A stretch of 64,000 nt of DNA from Microbispora bryophytorum. Lineage in GTDB: Bacteria > Actinomycetota > Actinomycetes > Streptosporangiales > Streptosporangiaceae. Of this stretch, positions 4,501 to 63,702 are shown one piece after another. The stretch spans positions 62,001-126,000 of the forward strand of contig NZ_VIRL01000001.1 in NCBI RefSeq assembly GCF_006874465.1, written 5' to 3'. Below the pieces are notes generated by a model that worked only from the letters and a program-made list of their open reading frames with translations, was not told where the DNA came from and did no database searches. The position numbers and the translations under genes are program-made. Positions within the stretch are counted from its first letter, which is position 1. Each line of letters opens with the position of its first letter.

Positions 4501-4855
4501 ACTCGACCAGCCGGGGGAGGCGCCAGGCGTCCACGTCACCGGGCTCCAGCGCCAGCCGATAGCCAGGGGGAGCGCTGACCAGCACGCGGGCGGCGGCGCG
4601 GGGGGCGCGGCCCGGCTCCAGTGCCCGCCGCAGGTTGGAGACGTAGACCTGGAGCGCGCCCAGCGCGCGCGGCGGAGGCTGGCCCCTCCACAGGTCGTCG
4701 ACGAACCGGTCGGTCGACACCACGTGTCCCTGTGCGCAGACCAGCCGGGCCAGAACGGCGCGCTGGAGCGAGGTCCCGAGGTCCGCGGGGCGCCCGCCGA
4801 CCTCCGCCGCGATTCGTCCGAGAACCCGCACTTTCACCATGACGGGGGCAAGCAT
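1514..4855 (-). CDS. AfsR/SARP-type transcriptional regulator with BTAD, AAA ATPase and TPR-like domains
   Basis: A 1113-residue regulator. Residues 1-95 form the winged-helix DNA-binding domain (VRVLGRIAAEVGG...), about 100-255 the bacterial transcriptional activation domain, and about 290-560 an AAA/STAND ATPase with Walker A GEAGSGKST near 318 and Walker B LLIVLEDVHRADE near 410. About 500 residues of Ala/Leu-rich TPR-like helices follow. Family members activate secondary-metabolite or development genes in an ATP-dependent way. Only 5 nt separate it from the upstream NlpC/P60 gene on the same strand, so the two are probably co-transcribed. No biosynthetic cluster is adjacent. ATG 4840 (MVKVRVLG) is an equally possible start; neither has a good ribosome site. 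Confidence 0.88.
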   Translation of the reverse strand: MLAPVMVKVRVLGRIAAEVGGRPADLGTSLQRAVLARLVCAQGHVVSTDRFVDDLWRGQPPPRALGALQVYVSNLRRALEPGRAPRAAARVLVSAPPGYRLALEPGDVDAWRLPRLVESAAGLLTEGRHARALEVVDEALALWTGPAYAEFGEEEWALPEAVHLDELRAVAVEHRAEAGLALGRHAEVVPELERHLTAHPLRENAVRLLALAYYRSGRQGEALAVLRRTRGLLADQLGVDPGPALRALEADILAQAESLDATPVVRAATARVVPAPSATLSPVQEPVRMVGRTAELSRLAAAAQRARDGFRIAWLGGEAGSGKSTLADALVRRLAADGWQTVVGRCPETTGGVPPAWAWSEVLRELSATCPPEPGTAARLAPLLTDDAAPVGQFWLARAAGDYLEGVPGPLLIVLEDVHRADEETLQLLRHLAGRLARTPVLVLLTHRPAEAADDLTATAAALAVQAVENFTLGGLGEREVARLLAERSGAEVDEATVRTVTERSGGNPLFVTETARLLAVDGPSAAHALPPGVRDLIRRRLARLPAPARTTLRNAAVVGREADADVLIAMPGADEETVLDGLEAGVLSGLLEEPRPGRVRFAHVLVRETLYEDIPRLRRTRMHGKVLAALEVIRPGDVGALGHHALAAATTATALTAAEYAARAAGQATALYAHKEAAALLEGALGALDLVSGGAGDAPWDVRLDLLCRLVSAQSHAGDVITAVRNRTKALAVARQTGDRGAVARAVSSLDAPIIWTIQPDRAFDADLIGAIEESLPAEAGELRCRMLVALCHALEGHDAERIEAASAEALAIADALGDLHLRCMALNARYWVCLTPDRRDDLETLGHDLLAASAAAGLLGYQTLGHFSLLMVALSRNDWTTARRHADKAMELSTSGQLGLALGILAFLDAVHLLVRGEFERAESVYTQLGERLASTGDANGAMVGTVGRFVVKLAAGRVHESVEELAALWERLPQDVAELYTRALAGAGRLEEARVAWASARVPRRDYYWLVFMSLRADNAIAFGHRAAAEECYRLLLSSDGELAGLHSGSVTLGPVAHTLGDLAAFLGRPGDAEAHYLRAAEVARQVGSPHWEEAARREADNAALTRRRR

Positions 4856-4860
4856 AAGGA

Positions 4861-5385
4861 TCAGGCCCGGTAGTGGTAGTAACCGAGCAGGTCATGCAGA
4901 ACACTCACGTGGTCCATGCGGATCCGTGTCCCGGTGGCGAACGCGTCGATCATCTTTCCTCCGCCGACGTACACCCCGACGTGGTGGGTTCTGCCGGGCC
5001 TACCGTAGAAGACCAGGTCGCCGGGTTGCGGCACGCCGACCCGGCGCAGCCTGCCGAGGTGGTCGTCGGTGTTGCCGGGACCGAGCACGTCGCCGCCGAA
5101 CGCCAGGTCGTACACCCAGCGAGTGAACCCGGAGCAGTCGAAGCCACGCGTCCGGTTCGCCGGGCAGGGCGTGACCGAGCCGCTGTACCCCCGGCAGGTC
5201 CCATTCGACGGCCCCGGCCGCGCCGCGTGCCCCCCGCCCCAGGAGTACGGAAGGGAGCCCTGGGCGGCGTACGCGACGGCGGCGGCCCGGGACAGCTCCT
5301 CGTCGAGCGGCGCCGATCCCACCCCGGCCAGCGCGACGATCGCTCCGATCAGCAGCCGACGCTTAACCCCCATGGATCGGGACAA
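4861..5385 (-). CDS. secreted NlpC/P60 family peptidoglycan endopeptidase
   Basis: A 174-residue exported protein. A short signal-like N terminus (KRRLLIGAIVALAGVGSA) precedes the catalytic NlpC/P60 domain. The catalytic Cys lies in FDCSGF near residue 84 and the His in THHVGVYVGGG near 139. The PGDLVFYG segment is typical of the family, which cuts D-Glu/m-DAP bonds in cell-wall stem peptides. An insert rich in Gly, Pro and Cys (residues 55-80) precedes the catalytic Cys. The start could also be the Met four codons in (5373). The next gene downstream is the SARP regulator. Confidence 0.82.
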   Translation of the reverse strand: MSRSMGVKRRLLIGAIVALAGVGSAPLDEELSRAAAVAYAAQGSLPYSWGGGHAARPGPSNGTCRGYSGSVTPCPANRTRGFDCSGFTRWVYDLAFGGDVLGPGNTDDHLGRLRRVGVPQPGDLVFYGRPGRTHHVGVYVGGGKMIDAFATGTRIRMDHVSVLHDLLGYYHYRA

Positions 5386-5579
5386 TAGCCACCCGTCTTT
5401 TTATTAGCCAGAGAAGCTTTACCCCACTCGATCGACGCACCGGAGGGGGATTGTTACTCTGAGTACGGCTCAGCTCGTACGTTCATCGGCGTGTCGGTCG
5501 AAGCGCTTCGTCGGTCGCCCCGGACCCCGTCCCGCTCCCCCGGTGGTCCCCGGCGCCAAGGAGAGCGAAGGGAACCACC

Positions 5580-10130: not shown

Positions 10131-11498
10131 TCAGTCGATGGCGATCTGAGCGCGTACGGCGGGGCTGAGCCCGGCCAGGAGGCGAGCCGCGCGGCCGTCC
10201 GTGGTCGCCCGGAGCAGGGCCGCGGTGACCGGCGGCGGCACGTACTCCAGCACCTGCCTGGCCCGCCGGGTCGTCATCGCCTCGACCAGCCGGACCGCGG
10301 CGGGGGTGACGCCGAGCGCGTTGAGGATGTCGGCGGCGACCCGATCGGGGACGTCCGCGAGGATGCTCGCACCCCGGCTCGCGGGCAGCTGCCGCAGCAG
10401 CGCGGCCGCTCCCGCCGCGGTCATGTGACCGACCGCCCGCCCGGCCTGACCGGACGGCAGCAGGGCCAGCACGCCGGCCGCCCGGGACGGATCATCGGTC
10501 ATGGCGTCCAGCGCCTGCCCGATGGCGGCCGGCGCCATCGCGGCGAGCGCCGCGGCGGCACTGCGTAGAGAGGAGGCATCGCGTAGAGAAGAGGCCTGCC
10601 GCGGCGGCGGAGGCTCGGGTCGCGACTGGGGTGGTCGTGCTCGCGGCCTCTCGACCGGCGGCTCACGCCGCGGCGGGGCGGCGATCGCCGCCAGCCTGCG
10701 GTCGAGTTCGGCTGCTCCCATGCGGAGAGCGGGGTCCTTCCTGAGCAGCCCGGCGACCACGTCGTACAGCGGCCCGCCGCGGCGGGGTGGCGGAAGGTCG
10801 TCGGTGCAGACGGCGTGCACGGTCGCGTAGGCGTTGTCCCGCCGGAAGGGCGAGTAGCCCTCCAGCGCGCAGAAGAACGTGACGCCGAGCGACCACAGGT
10901 CGGCGGCGGGCCCCACCGCCCGCCCGTCGATCCGCTCCGGCGCCATGAACTCGGTGGTGCCGAGCATGATGCTGCGCGAGGTGAGCCCGCTCTCGCCGAC
11001 GATCTGCGCGATGCCGAAGTCGACGAGCACCACCTTTCCCTCGTGGCCCACCACGATGTTGGCCGGCTTGACGTCACGGTGCACCACGTGGGCGGCGTGT
11101 GCGGCCGTCAGCCCGGCCAGCACCTCGCGTCCCAAGGCGGCGATCTCGCGCTCGGACAGCGTCCGCCGCCGGATCAGGTCGTCCAGGGAGCCGCCCTCGA
11201 CGTGGACCATGACGATCCACGGCGAGCCGCCCTCCTCGAAGACGTCGTAGATCTCGGCTATCGCGGGGTGTCTGATCCGGGCCAGCGACCGGGCCTCGCG
11301 CAGGGCCCTCGCGCGCTGGATCTCGATCCCCTCGCCGTACGGCGTCAGCACGACTTCCTTGAGCGCGACGAGCCGACCGAGCATCCGGTCCATCGCGAGC
11401 CAGACCGTGCCCATGCCGCCGCGGCCGAGCTGGGTCCTCAGCTCGTAGCGGTTTTTGATCAGCCGTACCGGGCCCCCCGCCGGAGCGTCAGTCGTCAT
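10131..11498 (-). CDS. soluble Ser/Thr protein kinase with C-terminal helical repeats
   Basis: A 455-residue protein. Residues 18-275 are a Hanks-type kinase: glycine loop GRGGMG (25-30), catalytic Lys47 in VALKEV, HRDVKPAN (140-147), DFG (160-162), APE (186-188). All catalytic residues are present, so it should be active. A Pro/Arg linker (275-310) leads to about 140 residues of short helical repeats (for example ADVPDRVAADILNALG and LLPSGQAGRAVGHM) that resemble the MgtE N-terminal/FliG-type superhelix. Unlike PknB-type kinases it has no membrane segment or PASTA repeats. ATG 11498 overlaps the upstream DUF4407 stop by 11 nt, so the two are translationally coupled. I infer that the repeats recruit a partner. 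Confidence 0.88.
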   Translation of the reverse strand: MTTDAPAGGPVRLIKNRYELRTQLGRGGMGTVWLAMDRMLGRLVALKEVVLTPYGEGIEIQRARALREARSLARIRHPAIAEIYDVFEEGGSPWIVMVHVEGGSLDDLIRRRTLSEREIAALGREVLAGLTAAHAAHVVHRDVKPANIVVGHEGKVVLVDFGIAQIVGESGLTSRSIMLGTTEFMAPERIDGRAVGPAADLWSLGVTFFCALEGYSPFRRDNAYATVHAVCTDDLPPPRRGGPLYDVVAGLLRKDPALRMGAAELDRRLAAIAAPPRREPPVERPRARPPQSRPEPPPPRQASSLRDASSLRSAAAALAAMAPAAIGQALDAMTDDPSRAAGVLALLPSGQAGRAVGHMTAAGAAALLRQLPASRGASILADVPDRVAADILNALGVTPAAVRLVEAMTTRRARQVLEYVPPPVTAALLRATTDGRAARLLAGLSPAVRAQIAID

Positions 11499-12891
11499 CG
11501 GGGAGCAGCTCGACACCGCCGGGGCGGTCGGCGCCGGTCCGCGGCACCCGCGTGGTCCTGGCGTCCGGCATCCGCCTCAGTTCCTGGTCCTCCATCGAGT
11601 CGTACGCGTCGGTCTCGCCGACGGTCTCCGCGCGGGTGCCGGTGGGGCCACGGTAGGCCGCGCCGTCCTCGGGGAGGGTGACGACCGGTTGCGGACCTGT
11701 CTCGCCCGTGCGGGACCAGATGCGCCAGACGTCCTGCGAACGGCCCGAGGGCGACGCGGGCGTCCCTCGGCCGTCCGTGCCGTGCGAGGTGAAAGCGCCC
11801 TGGGCGGCGAAGGTGCCACGCGCGTCCCGGAACTCGTGCTTCTCGGCCAGCGCGAGGACTTTCTCGTAGTTGCCCGGCCGCTGCATCAGCTTGATCGTCA
11901 CCGGCAGGCACTCGATGAGGAGGAACAACAGGAACAGCAGCAGGCGGGTGACGCCGAGGCTGCTGTCCTTGCCGGTCACCTCGTTGAGCGCCTGAATGCG
12001 GATGAGCAGGCCGTTGGTCGCCATGTTCTCCGCGTCGAAGGTCGCCTGGAGGTCCGCCTGCCGCTTGATCCCCGCGTCGAGCTGCGCCTTCGCCTTGGGC
12101 AGGGCGTCCCGCGCGCTCGCGAGGCGGGCCTGCTTGGCCTCCTCACTGCCGGCGTTCAGCTCCCGCTTCCGGTCCTCGATCTGCCGGTTGATCAGGTCGA
12201 GGCGCCGCTTGTCCTTCTCGTACGCGCGCCGGCTGTCCTGGGCGAGAGGGCCGTCGCCCTTCTTCGGACACGACGGTCCTCCGTACAGCTGGCACTGCCA
12301 CTCGCCGTAGTGCTTGTCGGCCAGCTTCTGCTGTCTGGCGCGCTCGGCGGTCAGCGCCTTGACGTTCGGGTCCTGCTCGGTGTCGATGGGCACGTCACCT
12401 CCGGAGGAGATGACTTTTTCCAGGTCCGCCACCTCTTTGCGGAGCTGGCCGACGTCTTTGCCGACGTTGCCCTGCTGCTGCCGTGCGGCGAACGCGTCCG
12501 CGCGCTGCTGCTTGATCTGGACAATCTGGGCATCGATTTCGGACTGGAAGATCTGGAGCACCAATGGCGTGGAGATGACGAACCCGAGCAGAAGCGCCAT
12601 GAGAAAGCGCGGAACGGCCAGCGGCCAGCGGCGCGGGGCGTCCGCCTTCATCGTGCTGACCAGCCAGCGGTCGAGGCTCAGGATCATCAGGCCCCATACC
12701 AGCGCGGCGAGAACGGCCAGGACGACGTTGACACCCAGAGCGCTGTTGAGGGCGAACGTCATCGAGACGACCGCGAGGACGGCCGTCGTGAGCACGGCGC
12801 CGCCGATTCCCTCGAACTTCCCGTACTCGCTCGGGCACCGTTCGAGCACCTCAGGCCGTGCTCCGGACAGCCCAATCAGAAACCGTCGCAT
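11488..12891 (-). CDS. DUF4407 membrane/coiled-coil protein
   Basis: A 467-residue protein with the DUF4407 layout: a short N terminus, two closely spaced hydrophobic pairs (about 28-75 and 90-115), a long charged region predicted to form coiled coil (about 120-290, rich in Gln, Lys and Glu), another membrane segment near 300 (LLLFLLFLLIECLPVTIKLM), and a disordered C-terminal tail. The coiled-coil part would lie outside the membrane. Family function is unknown. The ATG start has gaggag upstream. It is the first gene of a pair with the Ser/Thr kinase, and its tail (many Thr/Ser in Arg/Asp context) is a plausible kinase substrate, which is inference. Confidence 0.82.
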   Translation of the reverse strand: MRRFLIGLSGARPEVLERCPSEYGKFEGIGGAVLTTAVLAVVSMTFALNSALGVNVVLAVLAALVWGLMILSLDRWLVSTMKADAPRRWPLAVPRFLMALLLGFVISTPLVLQIFQSEIDAQIVQIKQQRADAFAARQQQGNVGKDVGQLRKEVADLEKVISSGGDVPIDTEQDPNVKALTAERARQQKLADKHYGEWQCQLYGGPSCPKKGDGPLAQDSRRAYEKDKRRLDLINRQIEDRKRELNAGSEEAKQARLASARDALPKAKAQLDAGIKRQADLQATFDAENMATNGLLIRIQALNEVTGKDSSLGVTRLLLFLLFLLIECLPVTIKLMQRPGNYEKVLALAEKHEFRDARGTFAAQGAFTSHGTDGRGTPASPSGRSQDVWRIWSRTGETGPQPVVTLPEDGAAYRGPTGTRAETVGETDAYDSMEDQELRRMPDARTTRVPRTGADRPGGVELLPDDD

Positions 12892-13106
12892 GCTTCTCCT
12901 CGCCTACGCGCACATATTGGAACGTGGCATAACGATCGAGACTCGGGCTATCGTAGATCACCGCAAGATTGTGGGAAACCGAGAATGATTCGACGCAACG
13001 ACACAACAAGAACCCTACCGTTATGACAAGTCGTCTTTTCGTTGTTACCCACTAGTTCGGATATAGGGGGACAGGGGCGACGAATAGGACAATAAACGGA
13101 GGATCC

Positions 13107-14531
13107 GTGTCAGAGCCCGACAAGGCTCTGCTTCGCAAGGCCGTCGCCCGAGCCGTTGCGGGGCTCACCGCCACCGGCCGCCTCACGATCGTGGAGGTCG
13201 CCGCCGACGGCATGACCGTCTTCCGGATCCACCGGGACGACAACGGCAGGCCTCGCTGCCATTACTGGTCGTCGTCATGGGAGGACCTGACCTCCGAACA
13301 GGGGTGGGAGCACGAGTCCTCCCGGCAGGCCGTGCTCCGGGCCGCCGACCCGCTCTCCGCCGACGAGGTCGTCCTCGTCTGCTCGTTTCCCGAGGGCGCC
13401 GAGGCCAACCGGGCGCTGGCCTGGCTGAGCGAGGCGCGGCCCGCCGCCGTCCTCCCCTGCGACGGGCCGGCCGTCGCGGTCGTCGAGGACGTCCTGGCCT
13501 CCGACCCGCTCTCACGGTCGTACGACCTGGTCGTGCTGCGCGCCGACCACGCGAGCGGGCGGTTGCGGCTGGGGAGCAAGCAGTTGTTCCCCATTGGCAC
13601 CCTGCCCGGGACCAGAGCCGAGGTGACCGTCCGCTGCGAGCCCGGCGACGAGTACGGCACCGCGTTCGCCGTCGTCACCTGGCAGGGCCGGGAGCCCAGG
13701 CTGCTGTCGGTGCACAGCGCCAGGCTCACCCCCGGCCGTTATCTGCTGACGGCCGAGCTGGTGCGGCCGGGGAAGGTGCGGTTCACCGGCGTGCCCGAGC
13801 TGACGCGGGACCCGCGCGGCTGGAACGACCTCGTGGCGGCGGCGCCGTCACAACTGCCGCCCAGGGCCGGGCCGGCACACCTGATCTGCGCGGTGGAGGT
13901 GAGCGGGCCGGACGCGAAGGTGGAGGAGCGCCTGAGCCGGGTGCGCCAGATGGTCAGTCATCTGTCCGCCGAGCTCGCGGACCTCCTGCGGGTCTCCCTC
14001 GTGGCGTACGGCGCGCACTCCTACGACGACCGGGCGGCCAGAGAGCATCCGGTGGAGGTCGCCGCGTGGCAGGTCACGCCCGAGCGCGCGCTGGCCGCCC
14101 TGGAGTGGTTGGAGGAACGCGGCGCGATCACCGAGGGCTACCCCTACTATCCGCACGCCGCCCAGGTGGAGGACATGCTGGAGGCGGTGGCCCGGCGCCT
14201 CACGACGGCGGAGCAGGTGCGCACGGTCCTGCTCACGGTCGGCGACCGCCCGCCGCACCCGGCGCGGACGAACCGGTCGCTGATCCTGCCCTGCCCGCAC
14301 CCACATGACTGGCGGTTACTCGTGGGCCGCGTCCAGAGCCGGCCGGACACCGTGCTCGCCGCGATCTGCGACCGCGAGGACACCTTCGCGCACCCGGCCT
14401 GGCGCCGGCTCGGCGCGAACGCGCTCGCGCATCTCGACGCCCTCGACATCCGGGGGCTGGCCGCCGACCTGGGGCTGGCCGCGCCCGCCGCCCTCCCCAT
14501 CCCGTTCCCCCTCCTCGACGAGACGGAGTGA
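13107..14531 (+). CDS. vWA-like protein of a GTPase gene cluster
   Basis: A 474-residue soluble protein I cannot assign to a named family. The N-terminal 240 residues are mixed alpha/beta. From about residue 250, the pattern AHLICAVEVSGPD ... VRQMVSHLSAEL ... RVSLVAYGAHSYDD looks like a von Willebrand A Rossmann fold (central strand, helix, strand) with a possible degenerate metal site. GTG 13107 has ggagg 5 nt upstream. It opens a plus-strand operon: the next gene starts inside its stop (GTGA). In related predicted systems a vWA protein pairs with a TRAFAC GTPase and a GAP1 protein, which fits its neighbours here. Confidence 0.7.
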   Translation: MSEPDKALLRKAVARAVAGLTATGRLTIVEVAADGMTVFRIHRDDNGRPRCHYWSSSWEDLTSEQGWEHESSRQAVLRAADPLSADEVVLVCSFPEGAEANRALAWLSEARPAAVLPCDGPAVAVVEDVLASDPLSRSYDLVVLRADHASGRLRLGSKQLFPIGTLPGTRAEVTVRCEPGDEYGTAFAVVTWQGREPRLLSVHSARLTPGRYLLTAELVRPGKVRFTGVPELTRDPRGWNDLVAAAPSQLPPRAGPAHLICAVEVSGPDAKVEERLSRVRQMVSHLSAELADLLRVSLVAYGAHSYDDRAAREHPVEVAAWQVTPERALAALEWLEERGAITEGYPYYPHAAQVEDMLEAVARRLTTAEQVRTVLLTVGDRPPHPARTNRSLILPCPHPHDWRLLVGRVQSRPDTVLAAICDREDTFAHPAWRRLGANALAHLDALDIRGLAADLGLAAPAALPIPFPLLDETE

Positions 14532-15526
14532 GACCAGACATGCAGTCCGACCCGGCGCAGGGACCATCGGCCCACGACATCGCCATGTGGGGCGCCCCCG
14601 GCAGCGGCAAGACCACGCTTCTGGCCGCCCTGAACATCGCGCTGATGCGGCGGAAGGACGAATGGAAGATCGTCGGCTCCGACGCCGCCTCGTCCGACTA
14701 CCTCATCGAGAGAACGAACGCGCTGTCGAGCGGGAAGATCTTCCCGGAGGCGAGCCAGAGCCTGGAGCACTACCGCTGGACGCTGGTCGGACCGGCCGAG
14801 CGGCAGGAACGCCGGTGGCTCCGCAAAGCCCGGCCCACCGCACCGCTGAAGATCGGCATCAGCATGGTCGACGCGCCGGGCGGTCTGTTCAGCGCGGGCC
14901 CTCTCCATCTGGGGAACGGCTCCGGCGTCGCCGACGACCTGCGCCGGCGCCTGATGGACAACCTGGTGAAGAGCCGGGGCCTGGTCTTCCTCTTCGACCC
15001 CATCCGGGAGTTCGAGCTCGGCGACGCCTTCGACCACCTGCACCCGCCGCTCACCCGCCTGGCCGAGAAGATGCTCGAGAGCGGGGAACTGCGGGACGGC
15101 ATGCTCCCCCATCACGTCGCGGTCTGCATCACCAAGTTCGACGACCCCAGGGTGCTGGAGACCGCGGAGAAGCTACACCTGCTCGACTCCGCGCCCGACG
15201 ACGAGTACGGATTCCCCCGGGTGACCAGCGAAGACGCCGGTGACCTGTTCCGGGCGCTGTGCGAGGTGTCCGCGAGCGGCAACGCGGACATGGTCGTCAA
15301 CGCCCTGGACCAGTTCTTCCACCGCTCCCGCGTCGAGTTCTTCGTCACCTCGTCGATCGGCTTCTACCTGCGGCCGCACACCAAGACGTTCGACCGGAAC
15401 GACTACCAGAACCTGCTCCCCGAGGCGGGCAGGGACCTGCGGATCCGGGGACAGGTCCATCCCATCAACGTCGTCGAGCCCATGCTGTGGCTCGGTCGGC
15501 GCCTCGCCGCCGGCGGTCCGCGGTGA
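14528..15526 (+). CDS. TRAFAC-type GTPase (double-GTPase/GAP1-system type)
   Basis: A 332-residue P-loop protein. The G1/Walker A motif is GAPGSGKTT (22-30), a G3-like DAPGG lies at 115-119 at the end of a beta strand, and a G4-like TKFD lies at 202-205. The last is close to the N/TKxD guanine-specificity motif and argues for GTP rather than ATP. There is no membrane segment. It resembles the GTPases predicted to work with GTPase-associated protein 1 in bacterial conflict systems. The start (GTG 14528) overlaps the upstream stop by 4 nt and its own stop overlaps the next start (GTGA), so the three gene products are probably made in fixed ratio. Confidence 0.78.
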   Translation: MRPDMQSDPAQGPSAHDIAMWGAPGSGKTTLLAALNIALMRRKDEWKIVGSDAASSDYLIERTNALSSGKIFPEASQSLEHYRWTLVGPAERQERRWLRKARPTAPLKIGISMVDAPGGLFSAGPLHLGNGSGVADDLRRRLMDNLVKSRGLVFLFDPIREFELGDAFDHLHPPLTRLAEKMLESGELRDGMLPHHVAVCITKFDDPRVLETAEKLHLLDSAPDDEYGFPRVTSEDAGDLFRALCEVSASGNADMVVNALDQFFHRSRVEFFVTSSIGFYLRPHTKTFDRNDYQNLLPEAGRDLRIRGQVHPINVVEPMLWLGRRLAAGGPR

Positions 15527-17778
15527 TCGGTTTCGAGTGGGCGCTGGAAGGCAAGCGGCCCGGCAGCTACGACGAATACGGCCTGCTGGAGTGGAGCGAC
15601 GGGCGGCTCGACCGCGAGGTGTTCGACAAGCTCAGGCACCGCTACACGGCGAGCACCGCCGGTGACCTGCCCCAGGTGACGATCGGGACCGCGAGGATCA
15701 GCGAGAACGGCCAGATCTCCTACTACCTGGTTCTGGCGATCCGGCAGTGGTCGGGTCACCGCGACTTCGCCAACCGCAAGATCGCCTACACCCGGTGGTT
15801 CTACGTGCCGTACGAGCAGCTTGTCGACCGGCCGGTGTCGTACACCGCGCTCTACACCGCCTTCGCCGCGCTGCCGCTGGAGCCGCGGCCTCCGCTGACC
15901 GTGACCGTGCCGCCGTACGACCCGGGGGTCATGGCTCCCGGCCCGGACACGTTCTCCGCCGCGGCGCTGCTGCTGAACGGCCGGCCCGTGTGCGTGGTCG
16001 GCGCCGACACCGTCCCCATGATCGATCGGCTGCGCTTCGCGGACACCGTCGCGGCGCTGCTGCCGTACGGGACGCGGACCAGGTTCACCGCCGCCACCTG
16101 GACCAGCAGCACGAGCGAGCACAGCATCAAGCTGTCGTTCGCGCGGTATGCCCCAGAAGGGGCGCAGACGGTGGTCTGGGGACGCGCGGCCGACAGCGTC
16201 CTCGACCAGACGCCGTCGAAACTCTGCCACCAGTTCTACACGCGGTCCGACGTCCCGGCTGCGGAGATGATCGCCAGGCTCGCCCGGCAGACCGAGCCAC
16301 TGTCGATCGAGAAGGACCGGCCCAAGGTGCTCCAGCTGGTCGAGCTCTCCGGTTCCGCGGCGCCAGAACCCGAACCCGAGCCGGATCGCTCCCCGCCCGC
16401 CGCTCCTCCCGCCCTGCCCACGGGCTCCACGGAGCCCACGGTGGCGTACCGGAACCGCGCGGGAAGCCCCTTGACCGAGGCGCTGGCCGACGCGCTCCCG
16501 TACGCCGCGGACGTCAGCGCCGCGGTCGAGGACCTGGTTCGCTCGGTCACGAACCCCACCGCCCTCCAGAGGGTGCTGCTCAAGCGCAACTGCTTCCGGA
16601 GTGTGATCGATCCCCGGAGTGACGCGACCCGGCTCTACGCGCGGCTCGTGGACGCGGCCTTCCCGGCCGAGGAGATGCGGAGGCAGGCCAGCCAGGACGT
16701 CGCCGATGCCCTCATCTGCTCGACGGCCACGCCGGATGCCGTCCGGCACAGGCTCGCCGCCCTCATGGGCACGCCTGCCGTCGAGCCCCGGCGGACCTGG
16801 TGGCCTCCCGGCCGCCGCGTCCGCCTGGCGTTGATCCTGACCGGCACGGCCGCGCTCGTCGCGGTGGCGGTCGTGGCCGTCTTCCTGACCCTGGGCGACG
16901 CCGGGGAGACCCCACAGGAGAGCCTCTCCCCTCCGCCGCTGGCGGTGGTCGTCCAGGCGCCCGCGGACCAGCGGTACGCCGCCGAGGCCTTCGCCGAGAG
17001 GCTCCGCCGCGACGGCTACGCCCCGTCCGTCGAGACGATCGACCCCACGAGCGTCACGCCGCCGGTGGGCAAGCCGGCCGTGACCGTCGCGTACGACCTC
17101 GACGTCCTGGAGTCGGTCAGCGGCGGCCGGCACTCCGGCAAGGACGTACGAGAGGGCCTGCAGGAGCGGGGCCTCAGCGAACTGGCGGACCTCCGGGTGA
17201 CGAGCACCGACGTCCTGCTCGTCAGGGACGGCGTCAAGCCGCAGCGGTTTCTCGACGACCCCGGCGAGGGCGACGACATCCTCATTCGCGACACGATCGG
17301 CGGGGAGCAGCTGCGCGCGCTGACCGATCACGGCCTCCGGCTGGTCACCGTGCCGGCCCGGGACATCTCACGCCGGCTGGCCGAGGGATCCGCCGACGCC
17401 GCGATCGTGCCCGAGAGTGTGAGCGCGTTCGAGGGCTACCAGCGCCCCGCTCCGCGGGACCTGCCGCTTGCGCAACGCAGGCTGGTCGTGCTCGTCAACC
17501 GCGAGGCGGACGAACCGATGCGGCAGGACCTGCTCCAGGTCGCAGGAGCGACCGATCTCGGGCACGCGCCCGAAGGCGACCCCATCCTGGCCGCGAAGGC
17601 CCTCGTCGATCGGATCGCCCCAGTAGGGGAACCGACGTCCATAGAAGAGCCGGAAGGGACAGATTCCTTCCCGTACGTCCTCTTCTTCGTGGTGGTCGCC
17701 CTCGCCTTCGTGGCGGTGGTGCTGTTGATGTGGCGGCCCGCCCGGCTCGGCGGAACGATCAGCCGGCACCGCCGATGA
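15523..17778 (+). CDS. GAP1-like GTPase-associated protein with exported binding-protein-like domain
   Basis: A 751-residue protein. Residues 1-275 match my picture of the GAP1 N-terminal region (FEWALEG ... SYYLVLAIRQ ... YVPYEQL; AALLPYGTRTRFTAATWTS at 178-195), followed by a Pro/Glu linker (276-310) and a helical middle domain (310-420). A first membrane helix (434-457) leads to about 250 residues outside the cell that read like a periplasmic binding-protein fold (PLAVVVQAPADQRYAAEAF, TSTDVLLVRDG, ADAAIVPESVSAF). A second membrane helix spans 716-736. The start is GTG 15523, inside the GTPase stop; a longer upstream frame only repeats the GTPase DNA. The exported domain suggests that ligand sensing is passed to the cytoplasmic GTPase, which is inference. 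Confidence 0.72.
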   Translation: MIGFEWALEGKRPGSYDEYGLLEWSDGRLDREVFDKLRHRYTASTAGDLPQVTIGTARISENGQISYYLVLAIRQWSGHRDFANRKIAYTRWFYVPYEQLVDRPVSYTALYTAFAALPLEPRPPLTVTVPPYDPGVMAPGPDTFSAAALLLNGRPVCVVGADTVPMIDRLRFADTVAALLPYGTRTRFTAATWTSSTSEHSIKLSFARYAPEGAQTVVWGRAADSVLDQTPSKLCHQFYTRSDVPAAEMIARLARQTEPLSIEKDRPKVLQLVELSGSAAPEPEPEPDRSPPAAPPALPTGSTEPTVAYRNRAGSPLTEALADALPYAADVSAAVEDLVRSVTNPTALQRVLLKRNCFRSVIDPRSDATRLYARLVDAAFPAEEMRRQASQDVADALICSTATPDAVRHRLAALMGTPAVEPRRTWWPPGRRVRLALILTGTAALVAVAVVAVFLTLGDAGETPQESLSPPPLAVVVQAPADQRYAAEAFAERLRRDGYAPSVETIDPTSVTPPVGKPAVTVAYDLDVLESVSGGRHSGKDVREGLQERGLSELADLRVTSTDVLLVRDGVKPQRFLDDPGEGDDILIRDTIGGEQLRALTDHGLRLVTVPARDISRRLAEGSADAAIVPESVSAFEGYQRPAPRDLPLAQRRLVVLVNREADEPMRQDLLQVAGATDLGHAPEGDPILAAKALVDRIAPVGEPTSIEEPEGTDSFPYVLFFVVVALAFVAVVLLMWRPARLGGTISRHRR

Positions 17779-18821
17779 CCGTGAGGAGCGCCGTGTCCGG
17801 CATGACGACCGAGGACGAGGTGGCGGAGTGGCTCAAAGCGCGAGCGACACCGCTGAACGGTCTGGAACCGGGCGCCGGAACCGCCGACCTGGCGCCGCTC
17901 CGCGTCGCGCTGGACGGCGTACGGGTGGTGGGGCTCGGCGAGGCCACGCATGGCAGCCGGGAGTTCTTCCTGATCAGGCACCGGTTGCTGGAGTTCCTGG
18001 TCGAGGAGTTGGGGTTCACGACGCTCGCGGTGGAGGCCAGCGCCTCGGCGTCCCGAGCCGTGGACGACTACATGCAGGGCGGCTCCGGCGATCCGGTCGA
18101 GGCGCTCGCCGGAAAGCGCCTGGGCGTCGGCCCACCGCTCGACCGGCGGATCGACGCGGACGCCCGCCGTGTGGAGGACTTCCTGACGGGCGTCTCCACC
18201 CCGGACGAGGCGGCGGCGCATGCGCGGATCGTGCGCCAGAGCGCCGACCTCGCGAGCCGGCCGCTCCGGCACCCCGACCCCGCACAAACCGTGAGCGTCG
18301 CCCGCGACCGCTACCTCGCCGACAACGTGGACCTGCTCCTGGCCGACCCGGACGCCAGGGTCGCCGTCTGGGCGCACAACGGCCACATCATGAAGGGCGG
18401 CCACAGCGGCGGGTCGGTGACCGCGATGGGCCGCCACCTCAGGCAGCGCCACGGCGAGGCGTACTACGCACTCGGCGTGTTCTTCGGCGCGGGCCGGTTC
18501 CGGGCCCGCCGACGGCGATTCGGAAAGGTGGACCCGGCCACGCCTCCGGTCACCTTCCGCGTCCCGCTCGTCCGGAGACCGACGATCGTGGAGGCCCGCC
18601 TGGCCACCGCCCATCCGGGTGAACATGTGATCGACCTGCGGAGCGGCCCACGGCCGGAGTCCGTGACGCGGTGGCTCGGCGAGCCCCTCCACATGCGCGG
18701 TTACGGAGGGGCGGTGGCGAGGCGGTTCACCTACAAACTCGGCTACATGCCCACGGTGCTCGCCGAGCACTTCGACGGCATCGCCTTCGTGCCCGAGACC
18801 ACCGCCTCCACCCCTCTGTGA
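17775..18821 (+). CDS. shortened erythromycin-esterase-like protein
   Basis: A 348-residue protein of the erythromycin esterase/EreA-like superfamily. It keeps the catalytic signatures GEATHG (55-60), the VEAS strand (86-89) and AHNGH (200-204). Compared with my memory of typical members (about 400 residues or more), the segment after DDYMQGGSGDPVEALAG is replaced by KRLGVGPPLDRRIDADARR, so some 50-70 residues around the usual Trp/Glu-containing helix seem missing. It may therefore not be an active macrolide esterase. The start ATG 17775 overlaps the GAP1-like stop (ATGA), tying it to that operon. Its stop is 4 nt from the stop of the convergent serine hydrolase gene. Confidence 0.8.
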   Translation: MTVRSAVSGMTTEDEVAEWLKARATPLNGLEPGAGTADLAPLRVALDGVRVVGLGEATHGSREFFLIRHRLLEFLVEELGFTTLAVEASASASRAVDDYMQGGSGDPVEALAGKRLGVGPPLDRRIDADARRVEDFLTGVSTPDEAAAHARIVRQSADLASRPLRHPDPAQTVSVARDRYLADNVDLLLADPDARVAVWAHNGHIMKGGHSGGSVTAMGRHLRQRHGEAYYALGVFFGAGRFRARRRRFGKVDPATPPVTFRVPLVRRPTIVEARLATAHPGEHVIDLRSGPRPESVTRWLGEPLHMRGYGGAVARRFTYKLGYMPTVLAEHFDGIAFVPETTASTPL

Positions 18822-57389: not shown

Positions 57390-58238
57390 TCACCGTCGGT
57401 AGCCGGCCATCCGCTCCAGACGGGCGATCCGCGCGGCGACCGGCGGGTGGGTCGCGAACAGCCTGCCGATCCGGGCACCCCGGAACGGATTGACGATCAT
57501 CATGTGGCCGGCGGAGGCGAGCCTGCCGTTCTCCGGGAGCGGCAGCCTGCGGACCTCCATCTCGATCTTGCGAAGCGCGGAGGCGAGGGCCAGCGGGTCG
57601 CCGGTCAGTCGTACGCCCGCGTCGTCTGCCGCGAACTCCCGCGAGCGCGCGATCGCCATCTGGATCATCGCGGCCGCGACCGGCCCGAGGATCATCACGA
57701 GGATGGCGCCGAGAAACCCCGGACCCTCGTCGTCGTCGGACCCGAAGAACAGGCCGGCGTACCCGAAGTATGTGATCATGGTCGCAAGCGCGCCCGCGAC
57801 CGAGGAGATCAGGATGTCGCGGTTGTGGATGTGCGACAGCTCGTGACCGAGCACGCCCTTGAGTTCGCGCTCGTCCAGCAGCCCGAGGAGACCGTGCGTG
57901 ACGCACACCACCCCGTCACGCGGGTTGCGCCCGGTCGCGAACGCGTTGGGCTGCATCGTCGGGGACACGTACAGGCGGGGCATCGGCGCGCGGGCCTCGG
58001 TGCACAGCTCGCGGACGACGCGGTAGAGGCCCGGCTGTTCCACCTCCGCCACGGGCCGGGCCCGCATGGCCGACAGCGCGATCCTGTCGGCGCAGAAATA
58101 GGAGACGCCGCTGACCGCGAGGGCGGCCACGACCGCGATCCGGGCCCCCGTGCCACCCCCCAGCCAGGCCCCCGCCACCAGGAGCAACGAGGACAGCGCC
58201 CCCAGCAGGACCGCGGTGCGCAGGCGGTTGTGGTGCAC
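57390..58238 (-). CDS. htpX: HtpX-like M48 membrane zinc metalloprotease
   Basis: A 282-residue protein. Two N-terminal hydrophobic segments (about 9-50) are followed by the metalloprotease domain with HELSH (132-136) as zinc site, NAFATGRNP before it, the downstream membrane pair (about 145-195) and the third ligand Glu in SREFAADDAGVRLTGDP. HtpX cleaves misfolded membrane proteins on the cytoplasmic side. GTG 58238 follows gggaggagg. A set of 13-nt tandem repeats lies just upstream. Confidence 0.9.
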   Translation of the reverse strand: MHHNRLRTAVLLGALSSLLLVAGAWLGGGTGARIAVVAALAVSGVSYFCADRIALSAMRARPVAEVEQPGLYRVVRELCTEARAPMPRLYVSPTMQPNAFATGRNPRDGVVCVTHGLLGLLDERELKGVLGHELSHIHNRDILISSVAGALATMITYFGYAGLFFGSDDDEGPGFLGAILVMILGPVAAAMIQMAIARSREFAADDAGVRLTGDPLALASALRKIEMEVRRLPLPENGRLASAGHMMIVNPFRGARIGRLFATHPPVAARIARLERMAGYRR

Positions 58239-58257
58239 GCCTCCTCCTCCCGGTTCG

Positions 58258-58313
58258 ATGTGTCGGGTTCATGTGTCGGGTTCATGTGTCGGGTTCGATG
58301 TGTCCGGCTCGGT
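58258..58313. repeat. 13-nt tandem repeats upstream of htpX
   Basis: The unit ATGTGTCGGGTTC occurs three times exactly (58258-58270, 58271-58283, 58284-58296), then after one base a degenerate copy (58298-58310) and traces of a fifth. It lies 20-75 nt upstream of the htpX start, between that gene and nuoN. Repeat number probably varies between strains. Confidence 0.85.
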
Positions 58314-58389
58314 GTGTTCAGCTCGGCGGCTCGATGCGTCCAGCCGTACCAACGCGCATGGCCTGGACGAACGTTCCCCGTGACGCGCC

Positions 58390-60009
58390 TCACCCTGTGA
58401 AGGACAGCACCACCTGCGGGGCGACGGAGAAGACCACGGTGACCGCGAGCGCGACCGCGACGGCGACCCCCGCCGCCGTCCTCGTCGCGACCGTACGGCT
58501 CTCGCCCGCCGCGGGCGGCGCGAACAGCCGGGCGGTCCAGGCGATGTAGTAGTAGAGCCCGGCCACCGTGTTGGCCGCCATGACCAGGGCCAGCCAGCCG
58601 AGCCCGCCGTCCACGACGGCCCGGAAGACGACGATCTTCGCGAACAGGCCCGCGAGCCCGGGCGGCAGCCCGGCCAGGCAGACGAGGGCGAAGGCGAGGG
58701 ACAGCCCGGCGGCGGGGCTGCGCAGCGCCAGCCCCCGGTATGCCTCCAGGTCCTGCCCTTCGGGCAGCCGCGCCACCAACAGGACCACCGCGAAGGCGAT
58801 CAGGTTCATCGCGGCGTAGAAGACGAGGTAGGCGACCGACGCACCGACGGCGGCGCGGGGGGCGACGGCGTAGACGGCCAGCGGCGCGAGGATGTAGCCC
58901 GATTGCGCGACCGACGACCAGGCCAGCAGCCGGACGGCCGCGCGCTGGCGCATCGCGAGGACGTTGCCCGCCGTCATCGTCAGTGCGGCGACGACCGCCA
59001 CCCCCGGCGCCCACAGCGCCGCCCTCCCCGGCAGCGCGGACGTCAGCAGCAGGATCAGCCCGGCGAAGCCCGACGCCTTGGACACCACCGACAGCAGCGC
59101 CGCGACCGGGACCGGTGCGCCTCGGTAGACGTCTGCCGCCCAGAAGTGGAACGGCACTGCGGCGATCTTGAACGCGAAGCCCGCCGCCACCAGCACGATC
59201 GCCACCGCCGTGACCTGGACCATGTCCCCGGCCGTGCTCCCGGCCAGATTCCCGGTCATGTCCCCGGCCGTGTCTCCGGTCGCCCGCAGGGCTGCGTCGA
59301 TGCGGTCGAGGTGGACCGAGCCGGTCACCCCGTAGAGCAGCGAGGCGCCGAACAGCGTGACCGCGGTGGAGACCACCGAGACCAGGAAGAGCTTGAGGGC
59401 CGCCTCGGCGGCGCGGCCGTCGTGACGCTTGAGCGCGGTCAGCGCGAAGACCGGCAGCGACACCAGTTCCAGGGACACGACCAGCATGATCAGATCACGG
59501 GAGGCGGGCAGGAGGACGGCCCCGGTCAGCGTGGCCAGCAGCAGGAAATACCACTCCCCCGCCGGAATCCGGCCGCGCTCTCCTGGCCCGCCGTGCTCTG
59601 CCGGCCCGCCGCGCTCTGCCGGCCCGCCGCCGCGTTCCGCGGCGATCTCGGTCATCGACAGCAACACGACGACCACCCCGGCGGCCAGCACGACCGCCGC
59701 GATGAGCAGCGAGAAGCGGTCCGCGACGAACGAGCACGACGCCGGGGCGGCCCGCCCCGCGGCAGGTGCGCCGCCGAGCGAGGCGGGGACGCAGAACGTG
59801 CGCCGGGTCCCGCCGCCCGCGGCCTGGACGGCCACCACGGCCAGGGCCGCGACCAGGCCGCCAAGGGTGACGAGACCGAGCATCCGCGCCCCGCCGGGGC
59901 GGGCGGGCAGGAACGCGTCGAGCAGCAGCACGAGCCCGGCGACCAGCGCGAGGACCAGCGGCGCCGCCACTGCGGCGTAGTCGATGGACTGGATCACCCC
60001 ACCCGTCAC
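58390..60009 (-). CDS. nuoN: NADH-quinone oxidoreductase subunit N
   Basis: A 539-residue integral membrane protein of the ND2/antiporter-like type with about 14 segments, one of the proton-pumping subunits of complex I. Conserved parts include LELVSLPVFALTALKRHDGRAAEAALKLFLVS, FKIAAVPFHFWAADVYRGAPVPVAALLSVVSKA (with the channel Lys) and AYLVFYAAMNLIAF. GTG 60009 overlaps the nuoM stop (GTGA). A hydrophilic insertion of repeated Gly/Pro/Glu/Arg lies near residues 124-150. Confidence 0.93.
   Translation of the reverse strand: MTGGVIQSIDYAAVAAPLVLALVAGLVLLLDAFLPARPGGARMLGLVTLGGLVAALAVVAVQAAGGGTRRTFCVPASLGGAPAAGRAAPASCSFVADRFSLLIAAVVLAAGVVVVLLSMTEIAAERGGGPAERGGPAEHGGPGERGRIPAGEWYFLLLATLTGAVLLPASRDLIMLVVSLELVSLPVFALTALKRHDGRAAEAALKLFLVSVVSTAVTLFGASLLYGVTGSVHLDRIDAALRATGDTAGDMTGNLAGSTAGDMVQVTAVAIVLVAAGFAFKIAAVPFHFWAADVYRGAPVPVAALLSVVSKASGFAGLILLLTSALPGRAALWAPGVAVVAALTMTAGNVLAMRQRAAVRLLAWSSVAQSGYILAPLAVYAVAPRAAVGASVAYLVFYAAMNLIAFAVVLLVARLPEGQDLEAYRGLALRSPAAGLSLAFALVCLAGLPPGLAGLFAKIVVFRAVVDGGLGWLALVMAANTVAGLYYYIAWTARLFAPPAAGESRTVATRTAAGVAVAVALAVTVVFSVAPQVVLSFTG
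59585..59636. repeat. 18-nt in-frame repeats inside nuoN
   Basis: The unit GGCCCGCCG(T/C)GCTCTGCC occurs twice in full (59585-59602, 59603-59620) and once in part, encoding the AERGG/PAERGGPAEHGG stretch of NuoN. The repeat is in multiples of three, so the frame is kept. It encodes a loop between membrane segments. Confidence 0.8.
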
Positions 60010-61691
60010 GGCGCCACCCCCGATCCGAGGAGCGACTGCACGGCGGGCGTGGTGACGGCGAGAAGAGCCTTCGGCCACAGGCCGAACAGCACGATCAGCG
60101 CCACCAGCGGGAGCCACGCCGCAAGCTCGTGGGCCGTCACGTCCCGGAAAGGCCGCCGCGCCTTGCCCGTCTGTCCGCCCGTCTGTCCGGCATCGGCGGC
60201 GACGGGCTCAACCGGTTTCGCGGCCTCCCCCGCCTCGCTCAGCACCTCGCGTACGCCTTCCGCCGTGGCGAGCGGCCCCGGCGGTTCATACAGCCCCGAC
60301 GGCTCATCCGGCTCCGGCGGTTCGAGGGGCCCGGCGAGCGGGACGGTCTCGACCGCCCGGCCGTGCGTCACCCGCGAGAGCATGGCCAGGAAATAGGCCG
60401 CGGTGAGCACCGCGCCGAGCCCGCCGACGGCCATGAACACGAGGAACAGCGGCCGGGAGAGCCCGGCAACCGGGCGGAACGCGCCGAGCAGCGCGAGCAT
60501 CTCCCCCCAGAACCCGGCGAGGCCGGGCAGGCCCAGCGAGGCGACGCAGGCGAAGGTCAGCAGCGAGGCGACGTACGGCAGGCGGCGCAGCATGCCCCCG
60601 CCCAGCCGGACCATGTCGGCCGTGCCGTACCGCTCCTTGACGGCTCCGGCGAGGAAGAACAGCAGGCCGGTGATCAGCCCGTGGGCGACGTTGGCGAACA
60701 GGGCGCCGTTCAGGCCCACCGGCGTGAGCGAGGCGAACCCGAGCAGCACGAACCCCATGTGGCCGACGGATGAGTAGGCGATCATCCGTTTGAGATCGCG
60801 CTGCGCGAGGCAGGCGAGCGATCCGTACGCGATGCCGGCCACGGCGAACGCGCCGAGCCAGGGGGCCAGGGCCGCCGCGCCCTCGGGGAGCACGGGGATC
60901 GCGATCCTGGCGAAGCCGTAGGAGCCCATCTTCAGCAGCACGCCCGCGAGCAGGACCGAGCCGACGGTCGGCGCCTCGGTGTGCGCGTCGGGCAGCCAGG
61001 TGTGCAGCGGCCACATGGGCGTCTTCACCGCCAGGCCGAGCCCTATGGCGAGGAACGCGAGGATCTGCGCCGACCGGGCCATGCCCGAGCCGTGGCGCCC
61101 GGCCAACGCGACCATGTCGAGCGTGCCGGCCTGGGTCCAGACGACGAGCAGGCCGATGAGGAGGACGGCCGAGCCGAGCAGCGTGTAGAGGATGAACTTC
61201 ACCGCCGCCGCCCGCCTTGCCGCGCCGCCCCACAGGGCGATCACGAAATACATCGGGACCAGCACGACCTCGAAAAACACGAAGAACAGCAGCAGGTCGA
61301 GGGCGAGGAACGTGCCGATCATGCCGACTTCGAGCACGAGCAGCGTGACGACCAGTGCGCCGGGTCTGCCGCCCTCGGGCGGGTGCCCGGCGAGGTGGAC
61401 GAAGCACAGGAACGTCAGCAGCGCGGTCAGCACGACGAGCGGCAGCGAGACGCCGTCCACGCCCAGGTGGAACCGCAGGCCGAGGCCGGGGATCCACGGC
61501 CGGTCGCTCTGCAGTTGCATGTCGGCGGGGCGCGCGTATTCGAAGGCCGCGGCGAGCGCGACGGCGAGGACCAGCACCCCGGCGGAGACGGCGATCCCCC
61601 AGGCCACCGCCCTGTCCCGGACGGCCGGGACGGTGGCGACGAGGGCCCCCAGCAGCGGGACGCCCACAAGCGCGATCGGCAGCCAGCTCAC
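60006..61691 (-). CDS. nuoM: NADH-quinone oxidoreductase subunit M
   Basis: A 561-residue ND4-type antiporter-like subunit with about 14 membrane segments. Landmarks are [61 protein letters not shown] (with proton-channel Lys and His), and [19 protein letters not shown]. Two hydrophilic stretches near the C terminus (about 445-515) are Pro/Glu-rich and longer than usual. GTG 61691 overlaps the stop of an 18-codon micro-ORF; its own stop overlaps nuoN. Confidence 0.94.
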   Translation of the reverse strand: [561 protein letters not shown]

Positions 61692-61744
61692 GTCGTCACC
61701 ACCGCGCGAAGCAGCGCTGTGCCGCTGGGAGCCCGCCGCATCAT
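61688..61744 (-). CDS. 18-codon micro-ORF tiled between nuoL and nuoM
   Basis: ATG ATG CGG... to TGA gives [18 protein letters not shown]. Its first ATG overlaps the nuoL stop (ATGA) and its TGA overlaps the nuoM GTG start (GTGA). Together with the 4-nt overlaps of nuoK/nuoL and nuoM/nuoN this would keep ribosomes in continuous contact from nuoK to nuoN. It may be a coupling device without a functional peptide. Confidence 0.35.
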   Translation of the reverse strand: MMRRAPSGTALLRAVVTT

Positions 61745-63702
61745 GTCAACACCACCGCCGCGACCGCGATCAGCACGAGCCCGGCCAGCAGGCCGGTGAC
61801 GTAGAGCTGGGCGTTGCCGTTCTGGGCGAGCCGCACCAGGCCGGAAAGACCGAGCGTCGCCCGGCCGGAACCGCGGACCGCGCCGTCCACCACCCGCGCG
61901 TCCGTGCGGACCACCCCTCTGGCCAGGCGCAGGACGGGCCGGGTGACCAGCGCCGCGTACGCGGCGTCGACGTAGAAGGCCCGCTCGCACGGCGCCCGGA
62001 ACGGGCCGAGCAGCCGGGCGGGGTCCTGTTCCGGCGCGGCCCGCCACAGGGCGTACACGATCCCGGCGCCGAGCAGTGCGACGGCGAGGCTGGCGGCCGC
62101 CGGCCCCCACTCGACCTGCACACCGGCCGCCCATCCGGCGAGGCCGAGCAGCAGGGCGGGCACGGCCAGCACGCCGGCCGGCCACAGCATCGACGGGGGC
62201 GCCTCCCGGCCGTCGAAGACGTGGGCGACACCCGGCGGCGGCTCCGGGAGCGGCTCGATCCGGGCGGGCCCGAAGAACGTGCGCAGCCAGGCCCGGGCGG
62301 CGTACGCCCCGGTCACCCCCACCGTCAGCAGCGCCGACGCGTACACGAGCGGCTGGGCCGGTCCCGTCCCGTGCTCGACGGCCGAGAGCACCGCGTCCTT
62401 GCTGAAGAAGCCGCTCGCGGGCGGCAGCCCAGCGAGCGCGGCGAAACCGATGGTCATCGTCCAGAACGTCACGGGAAGGGCGGTACGCAGCCCGCCCATG
62501 TGGCTGATCAGATTCGACCCGACATGGTGGATCACCAGGCCGGCGCAGAGGAACAGCAGGGCCTTGAACGCGCCGTGCGACACCAGGTGGAACATCGCCG
62601 CCCGGTCGGACCCGGCTGCCAGCGCCGCGGCCATGTAGGCGAGCTGGCTGATCGTCGAGTAGGCGAGCACGCGCTTGAGGTCGTCCTGAGCGAGCGCCGC
62701 GAGCGCGGCGCCCAGCATGCCGACGGCCGCGACCACGCCCAGCACGTCGAGCGTGGGCGGCGCCGCGAGGAAGGCGGGATAGAGCCGGGCGACGACGAAG
62801 ATCCCGGCCGCGACCATCGTGGCCGCGTGGATGAGCGCGCTGATCGGGGTGGGGCCGGCCATCGCGTCGGGCAGCCAGGTCTGCAGCGGCACCTGCGCGC
62901 TCTTGCCCGCGACCCCGGCGAGCAACAGCAGCGTCGCGGCGACCAGAGTGCCCCTGGGCAGGTCGGCGCGCAGCACGTCGTCGATCCGGAAACTGCCCGC
63001 CGACAGTCCCAGGACGAAGATCCCGAACAGGAAGCCGACGTCGCCGAGGCGGGTGACCAGGAACGCCTTGACCGCCGCCCGGGAGTTGGCCCGGTCCTCC
63101 CACCAGTGCCCGATGAGCAGGTAGGAGCACAGGCCCATGATCTCCCAGCCGGCGTAGAGGACGATCAGGTCCCCCGCGTAGACCACCAGCAGCATGGCGC
63201 TGGTGAACAGGCTGACGAACGCGCTGTAGGACGGGTAGCGGGGTTCGTCCCGCATGTACCCGACCGAGTAGACCTGCACCGCCAGCGCGACCACGACGAC
63301 CAGGATGCCCGCGAGCACTGACAATCCGTCGGCCCGCAGAGTCAGGGAGATCGGCACCGACCCCGTCTCGACCACCGTCAGGGTGCCCTCGGTTCGCCCG
63401 GGGAGCAGTTCCGCCCAGAAGCGCCCGTCCGTCGCAGGCGTGCCCCGCGCGAGGGCGGCGGCCAGCCACACCGTGAGCGCCGCCGACACCGTGCCCGGGA
63501 CGATCGCGAACCACGCCGCCCGCCGGTACGCCGCCCGTTCCGCGCGGGCGCCGACATCTGCGGTACGCGCATCTCGGGCGCCTACACCTCGCGTGCGCAC
63601 ATCTTCGGCGCGCACGTCTCGGGTGCCCAGGCGGGTCGCGAGCAGCCCGGCCACGGCGGCGGCGAACGGCAGCAGGACGATCAGAGCCACCACGGCGGTC
63701 AC
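61741..63702 (-). CDS. nuoL: NADH-quinone oxidoreductase subunit L
   Basis: A 653-residue ND5-type subunit with about 16 membrane segments and a long lateral C-terminal helix. Signatures are [68 protein letters not shown] and [21 protein letters not shown] cytoplasmic loop after segment 1 (about 22-55) contains an Arg/Asp-rich repeat ([21 protein letters not shown]) that is not usual in NuoL. GTG 63702 overlaps the nuoK stop. Confidence 0.94.

Follow-up and report, generated by a model that had tools for sequence, protein, structure and literature searches.

Five divergently arranged genes, coding for a Ser/Thr protein kinase, a DUF4407 membrane protein, a vWA-like protein, a GTPase and a GAP-like protein, form a conserved unit in a 64,000-nucleotide stretch of the Microbispora bryophytorum contig NZ_VIRL01000001.1 (the whole of this stretch is called the window below; coordinates in Table 1). 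By its motifs and profile matches the GTPase of this block is a remote relative of the DO-GTPase2 family. An earlier note on this DNA had taken six genes at 10131..18821 for one system; five of them do belong together, whereas the sixth, an Ere-like gene of the erythromycin-esterase family, is a Microbispora neighbour that lies outside the conserved unit. We give about an even chance to the proposal that the five genes make up one membrane-linked, envelope-sensing GTPase/kinase signalling switch.

The conservation of the unit was followed in two sets of loci that overlap in genomes: 60 regions chosen from the stronger GTPase matches of an order-wide search rather than from all matches, and the best 80 of 100 loci. 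Gene starts in the relatives were assigned by script, the GTPase of L069 and the kinase of L079 were left out of the protein sets, and the alignments use subsets (A1, the window with 44 of 60 loci; A2, the window with 42 of 59; A3, the window with 35 of 59). Of 297 genomes of the order 95 have the GTPase, as do 16 of 197 genomes sampled from the class; the genome carrying the window has one GTPase match and one DUF4407 match. Within the 60-locus set the vWA-like and GAP-like genes each accompany the GTPase in 59 loci, DUF4407 does so in 57 and the kinase in 56, the exceptions being L053, with the GTPase alone, L052 and L089, which stop at contig ends, and L090, where DUF4407 is distant and the kinase missing. 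The 80-locus set reaches from Microbispora, Microtetraspora, Streptosporangium and Herbidospora to Actinomadura, Nonomuraea, Frankia, Nocardia, Kribbella and others. Among the aligned relatives GTPase identity falls to 36%. In the 80 loci the vWA-like gene lies beside the GTPase gene in 76 loci and the GAP-like gene in 78, the latter directly downstream of it; 52 loci have the divergent kinase, and all 52 have the divergent DUF4407 as well. The idea that the two divergent gene sets belong together thus stands. Many distant relatives carry two GAP-like genes in tandem. As side observations, L246, L250, L253 and L254 each contain a facing pair of GTPase–GAP cassettes, recalling the paired GTPases of the DO-GTPase class, and in L042 (Microtetraspora glauca, ~10357-11700) about 1.3 kb separate the vWA-like and GTPase matches, which elsewhere almost touch.

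The kinase is not the only partner of the vWA-like–GTPase–GAP-like trio. In 17 of the 80 loci an AAA+ ATPase upstream of the core replaces it, and 11 of these 17 have DUF4407 in the stretch covered; kinase and AAA+ protein occur together in none of the 69 loci that have either. Neither is present in the other 11 loci, five of which cover less than 2 kb upstream of the GTPase. Four AAA+ proteins were scanned, and they match AAA with AAA_lid_6 or, in Kribbella, AAA_2. On a tree of the GTPases the kinase type requires 5 changes and the AAA+ type 7, below all 500 label shuffles, with the reservation that near-identical sequences promote clustering of this sort and that the placement of several long branches is uncertain. 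These substitutions suggest that the ATP-using module is exchangeable, with a constant GTPase core. Behind the trio on a Streptomyces linear replicon, where it is annotated as hypothetical, come a protein that truly matches vWA and a kinase whose C-terminal match is of the beta-propeller type. L255 resembles this arrangement.

Of 40 DUF4407 matches of at least 250 bits among 150 genomes, 38 adjoin the GTPase, against none of 27 weaker ones. By genome, 39 have both a strong DUF4407 match and the GTPase, none the strong DUF4407 only, two the GTPase only and 109 neither; the 250-bit line was drawn after seeing the match list, and these genome counts ignore relatedness. DUF4407 with such strong matches is a dedicated partner of the GTPase locus. 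This linkage bears on the possibility that the two arms work independently of each other, as two operons brought to a common promoter region by chance or for co-regulation. Divergent neighbour genes are common in bacteria, and the kinase is missing beside the trio in the 17 loci of the AAA+ type and in 11 others. The association has nevertheless been kept over deep divergence, DUF4407 also accompanies the trio in other orientations, and its strong matches are nearly confined to the side of the GTPase, all of which makes the separation of the two arms improbable.

The Ere-like gene behaves differently. Only 6 of 60 loci, all closely related to the window, have it near the block, and a six-gene system was rejected on that account. 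That it could be a recruited sixth component or an inactive effector is suggested by the 4 nucleotides that it shares with the window's GAP-like gene, by the spacing of 1-10 nucleotides in L160 and L127, and by the window copy being ~65 amino acids shorter in its middle than the copies in L032, L034 and L036; inactive enzymes serve as effectors in some of the systems described in the sections of Kaur et al. (PMC7159879) covered here. With the spacing extending to ~1.5 kb in other loci and only the C-terminal third of the gene matched in L035, we regard such a role as very improbable.

The nucleotide site of the GTPase is intact: the motifs that the earlier note had read in it (GAPGSGKTT, DAPGG, TKFD) are present, and across 45 aligned relatives no change is seen in GKT, in the D and G of DxxG or in T-K-x-D. 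None of the window proteins attains a curated Pfam cut-off for GAP1 or DO-GTPase, a lack that the same note had named as refuting its proposal; the window GTPase scores 16.6 bits with DO-GTPase1 and 16.4 with DO-GTPase2 in the P-loop region only, the cut-off being 27. Deeper profiles point to the kinship all the same. All 45 relatives match Pfam DO-GTPase2 (best E 8e-7), and many of them match general P-loop families as well. When a profile of the block GTPases was run on the 2511 open reading frames (ORFs) of 20 GAP1-N2 loci, its 19 best matches (E 3e-9 to 0.004) were DO-GTPases, one from each of 19 loci. All 59 block GTPases, 12 of the 19 DO-GTPases from GAP1-N2 loci and no other of the 2511 ORFs have a C-terminal motif, P..V.[DE]P..WL; within the block loci themselves the 136 ORFs that carry it, among 16,925, are GTPases without exception. 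Two features set the block GTPases apart from these relatives: the CxxC before the P-loop, seen in all 19 DO-GTPases compared, is absent from all 59 block GTPases, and the Walker-B position is glutamate in 9 of 59 relatives and glycine in the window (DAPGG). True GAP1-N2 is present in 53 of 121 genomes of the order and in none of nine genomes of the window's genus.

For the GAP-like protein the corresponding kinship is probable, though not proven. The window member has a conserved N region (~1-280), a variable linker, a predicted transmembrane segment at 437-455, a fast-changing segment and a second transmembrane segment at 719-737, and its nearer relatives share the two transmembrane segments on either side of the fast-changing part (here and below such segments were called by a simple hydropathy rule). 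Among the 17 Pfam families found in 43 members, GAP1-M is by far the commonest, matching 25 of these members (best E 0.0019, below the cut-off; no match in the window member), and one other family reaches two members; GAP1-N1 and GAP1-N2 have no Pfam match up to E 1 in these 43. Early profile-profile comparisons with GAP1 were weak (E 0.027 to 0.87), and a later one scored 22.2 with 3 of 100 shuffles higher. A deep profile of 140 rows aligned with GAP1-N2 plus M at a score of 31.6 over 181 collinear columns, where HH-suite gives a probability of just 20%; 0 of 100 shuffles came as high (maximum 21.95), and the other family pairs tried reached at most 21.1. Searches with hmmsearch from the GAP-like family gave no direct link to GAP1. 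These comparisons, read from sequence, suggest a diverged GAP1, so that the DO-GTPase/GAP1 kinship proposed in the earlier note holds remotely for the GTPase and probably for the GAP-like protein, even though the label 'GAP1-like' has no Pfam support from the window protein alone.

The same is true of the label 'vWA-like', which expresses a resemblance. There is no Pfam vWA match in 36 members, and the profile comparison scored 16.2, above 60 shuffles (maximum 15.2) yet within the range of unrelated family pairs.

Seven Microbispora copies were compared over eleven regions. The median ratio of nonsynonymous to synonymous substitution rates (dN/dS) lies between 0.08 and 0.63, with single pairs reaching 1.14 in the GAP linker only, which indicates that the genes are real. 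The lowest median, 0.08, is that of the first three transmembrane segments of DUF4407; the GAP N region has 0.22 and the GTPase 0.23. The ectodomain-like part between the two transmembrane segments of the GAP-like protein (0.56; 0.56-0.63 including the linker) evolves faster than the N region and than those DUF4407 segments. The divergent gap has 88% mean column identity over the seven copies and contains long stretches identical in all of them, such as the run around 13020-13040; a scan for sigma-70-like sites in it found none.

The block and one penicillin-binding gene share a contig, 1-21 kb apart, in nine of ten block-carrying Microbispora genomes checked, and lie on different contigs in G140; a mobile island in Microbispora was rejected for this constancy of place. 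G197 has no block, and its flanking genes are 1.9 kb apart. The loss in G069 has left a scar (L240, ~4600-5420), in which one deletion joins sequence matching window 10261 to 16905, with a remnant of the kinase tail abutting the middle of the GAP-like gene and an Ere remnant beyond. Together with the linkage to the penicillin-binding gene, these losses suggest that the block was probably present in the Microbispora ancestor and then lost in some lines. Elsewhere in the G069 genome a lone GTPase copy was noticed (L053, 9497-10468), with no other block gene nearby.

The anatomy of the window proteins gives a frame for the function of the unit. The kinase, which has the catalytic motifs VALK, HRDVKPAN and DFG, the vWA-like protein and the GTPase have no predicted transmembrane segment. 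The DUF4407 protein has them at 29-47, 52-70, 96-114 and 317-335, with a segment of ~200 residues before the fourth and a C-terminal tail behind it. About 260 residues of the GAP-like protein and about 200 of DUF4407 would then lie outside, if the N-termini are inside, and an external signal that reaches the GTPase and the kinase, as the earlier note had proposed, would fit this layout. In the switch that we favour, the outer parts of the GAP-like protein and DUF4407 would act as sensors of envelope state or of a ligand; the cytoplasmic part of the GAP-like protein might dock the GTPase and control its nucleotide state, and the vWA-like protein might act as a scaffold. The kinase would phosphorylate one of the partners, the DUF4407 tail being the first candidate, and thereby set the threshold, a part that the AAA+ module would play where it replaces the kinase.

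Several points weigh against this proposal. Function is read here from the genes, and the GAP1 identity of the GAP-like protein and the vWA fold of the vWA-like protein are unproven. Among 91 GAP-like proteins of the 80-locus genome set, 30 have no predicted transmembrane segment and 33 just one, so that membrane anchoring of this protein is not general. The outer segment of DUF4407 is conserved (dN/dS 0.15) and not fast-changing. Finally, presence in about a third of the genomes of the order, with loss in some Microbispora, is less usual for a housekeeping envelope system.

That uneven occurrence (95/297 genomes) and the loss as a block would suit an anti-invader conflict system of the DO-GTPase/GAP1 kind, silent as long as it senses no phage or other invader, with DUF4407 or the GAP-like protein's C-terminal part as membrane effector. 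So would the fast evolution of that C-terminal part, the duplicated cassettes of some loci and the relationship to the conflict class that Kaur et al. 2020 (PMC7159879) predicted. A variable effector gene is, however, missing: composition is constant in the kinase-type loci, and the gene after the GAP-like gene in 51 of these is on the opposite strand in 31, on the same strand more than 60 nucleotides away in 13 and within 60 nucleotides in only 6, one stretch ending there. Relatives of the block were found neither in phage records nor in viral contigs and only once in 72,556 plasmid records, and in Microbispora the block keeps close to one chromosomal gene. PADLOC 2.0, too, returned only generic models for the kinase and weak matches for DUF4407 and the GTPase (best E 0.002), and none for the vWA-like, GAP-like and Ere-like proteins. 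We therefore consider a conflict function possible, yet doubtful. The gene set that has stayed constant over deep divergence, with a coupled gene behind the GAP-like gene only rarely, and the membrane anatomy favour the signalling switch over a toxin-delivering conflict system.

The layout of the locus in the window is given in Table 1. The coordinates of the six ORFs were borne out by the ORF listing and translations, as were, from the sequence, the length of the divergent gap and the 4-nucleotide overlaps reported before (vWA-like/GTPase 14528-14531, GTPase/GAP-like 15523-15526, GAP-like/Ere-like 17775-17778); the kinase and DUF4407 genes overlap by 29 nucleotides (11488-11516). The starts of the GAP-like gene at 15523 and the Ere-like gene at 17775 fall inside longer mechanical ORFs. 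The kinase, DUF4407 and Ere-like labels rest on clear Pfam matches. NCBIfam, like PADLOC, gave generic kinase and weak P-loop matches for the window proteins, and sequence searches of PDB gave P-loop or low-complexity matches only, or none. Away from the locus, the AT skew climbs to 0.24-0.30 in the last 6 kb of the window (58001-64000), where long minus-strand ORFs of ~560-650 amino acids follow in succession.

Table 1. Genes and shared upstream region of the locus, in window coordinates
Feature	Coordinates	Strand	Basis
Ser/Thr protein kinase, MgtE_N-like helical C-terminal part	10131..11516	-	Pfam Pkinase 1.2e-49, MgtE_N 1.9e-10
DUF4407 membrane protein	11488..12891	-	Pfam DUF4407 E 3.9e-83; four transmembrane segments by hydropathy
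Shared divergent upstream region, 215 nucleotides	12892..13106	.	Sequence; conserved in Microbispora
vWA-like protein, soluble, without Pfam family	13107..14531	+	Adjoins GTPase in 76/80 loci
GTPase, remote DO-GTPase2 relative without zinc ribbons	14528..15526	+	Invariant motifs; profile matches; C-terminal motif
GAP1-like protein (putative)	15523..17778	+	GAP1-M sub-threshold in relatives; profile-profile alignment; transmembrane segments; dN/dS
Ere-like gene (erythromycin-esterase family)	17775..18821		Pfam erythromycin esterase E 6.2e-39

The earlier note knew of no description of this gene set, and our literature search found none either, the supplementary tables of Kaur et al., which may hold some of the loci, lying outside its coverage. 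DUF4407 has 0 occurrences in the text of that paper (PMC7159879; supplementary tables outside this count), and among the titles and partial texts searched it brought up only titles on other subjects; no experimental test of the DO-GTPase/GAP1 class came up in the same material. The locus gives DUF4407 consistent partners and connects two arms, one with a Ser/Thr kinase (or, alternatively, an AAA+ ATPase) and one with a GTPase. This compact, constant version occurs in Microbispora and Streptosporangium, which can be cultured, and its natural losses allow comparison, which makes it a practical test case. It also has a likeness to the conservons (cvn) of Streptomyces, conserved actinobacterial operons with a membrane sensor and a small GTPase. 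Conservons comprise a sensor-kinase-like protein, a roadblock protein and a DUF742 protein, none of which the Pfam scan showed in this block.

The closest comparison is with the systems of Kaur et al. (2020, eLife, PMC7159879), a class predicted from genomes and considered here from the sections of the paper that were covered. In these a DO-GTPase has a Walker-B glutamate and often N-terminal zinc ribbons (in 60% of the family, and usually in GAP1-N2 systems), and behind it comes GAP1, built of N, M and C domains; the GAP1-N2 type has, in addition, an FNIII protein and variable components, one actinobacterial theme being a kinase, PP2C and vWA. The block resembles this third theme in having a GTPase gene and then a GAP1-like gene, in being actinobacterial and in its apparently active protein kinase and possible vWA protein, and it shares with GAP1-N2 systems the C-terminal transmembrane segments on GAP1 in part of the family. 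It differs from them as described there in having DUF4407 as a partner instead, with no GAP1-N2 match, zinc ribbons, conserved Walker-B glutamate, FNIII or PP2C; the Pfam scan found no FNIII match in the six window proteins, no PP2C among the block proteins and no family named GASH, the component of GAP1-N1 systems, for which no specific model was run. The missing zinc ribbons, Walker-B glutamate, FNIII partner and variable effectors set the block apart from GAP1-N2 systems, as a variant of that kind. The AAA+-type relatives recall, in turn, the MoxR-vWA ternary systems of the same paper, with an AAA+ ATPase beside a possible vWA protein and a constant core with partner modules; unlike in those, as far as the covered sections describe them, a GTPase core takes the place of VMAP or iSTAND, variable effectors are missing, and the AAA+ matches are to AAA/AAA_lid_6 or AAA_2. 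It seems fairly probable, on these comparisons, that the block represents a third class within the DO-GTPase/GAP1 systems, which would serve filamentous actinobacteria as a membrane-sensing switch and have a DUF4407 branch of its own, and in which a constant core of vWA-like protein, GTPase and 'GAP1-N3' protein would be combined with exchangeable ATP-using modules, namely kinase and DUF4407, AAA+ with or without DUF4407, or a kinase-propeller protein and a secreted-type vWA.

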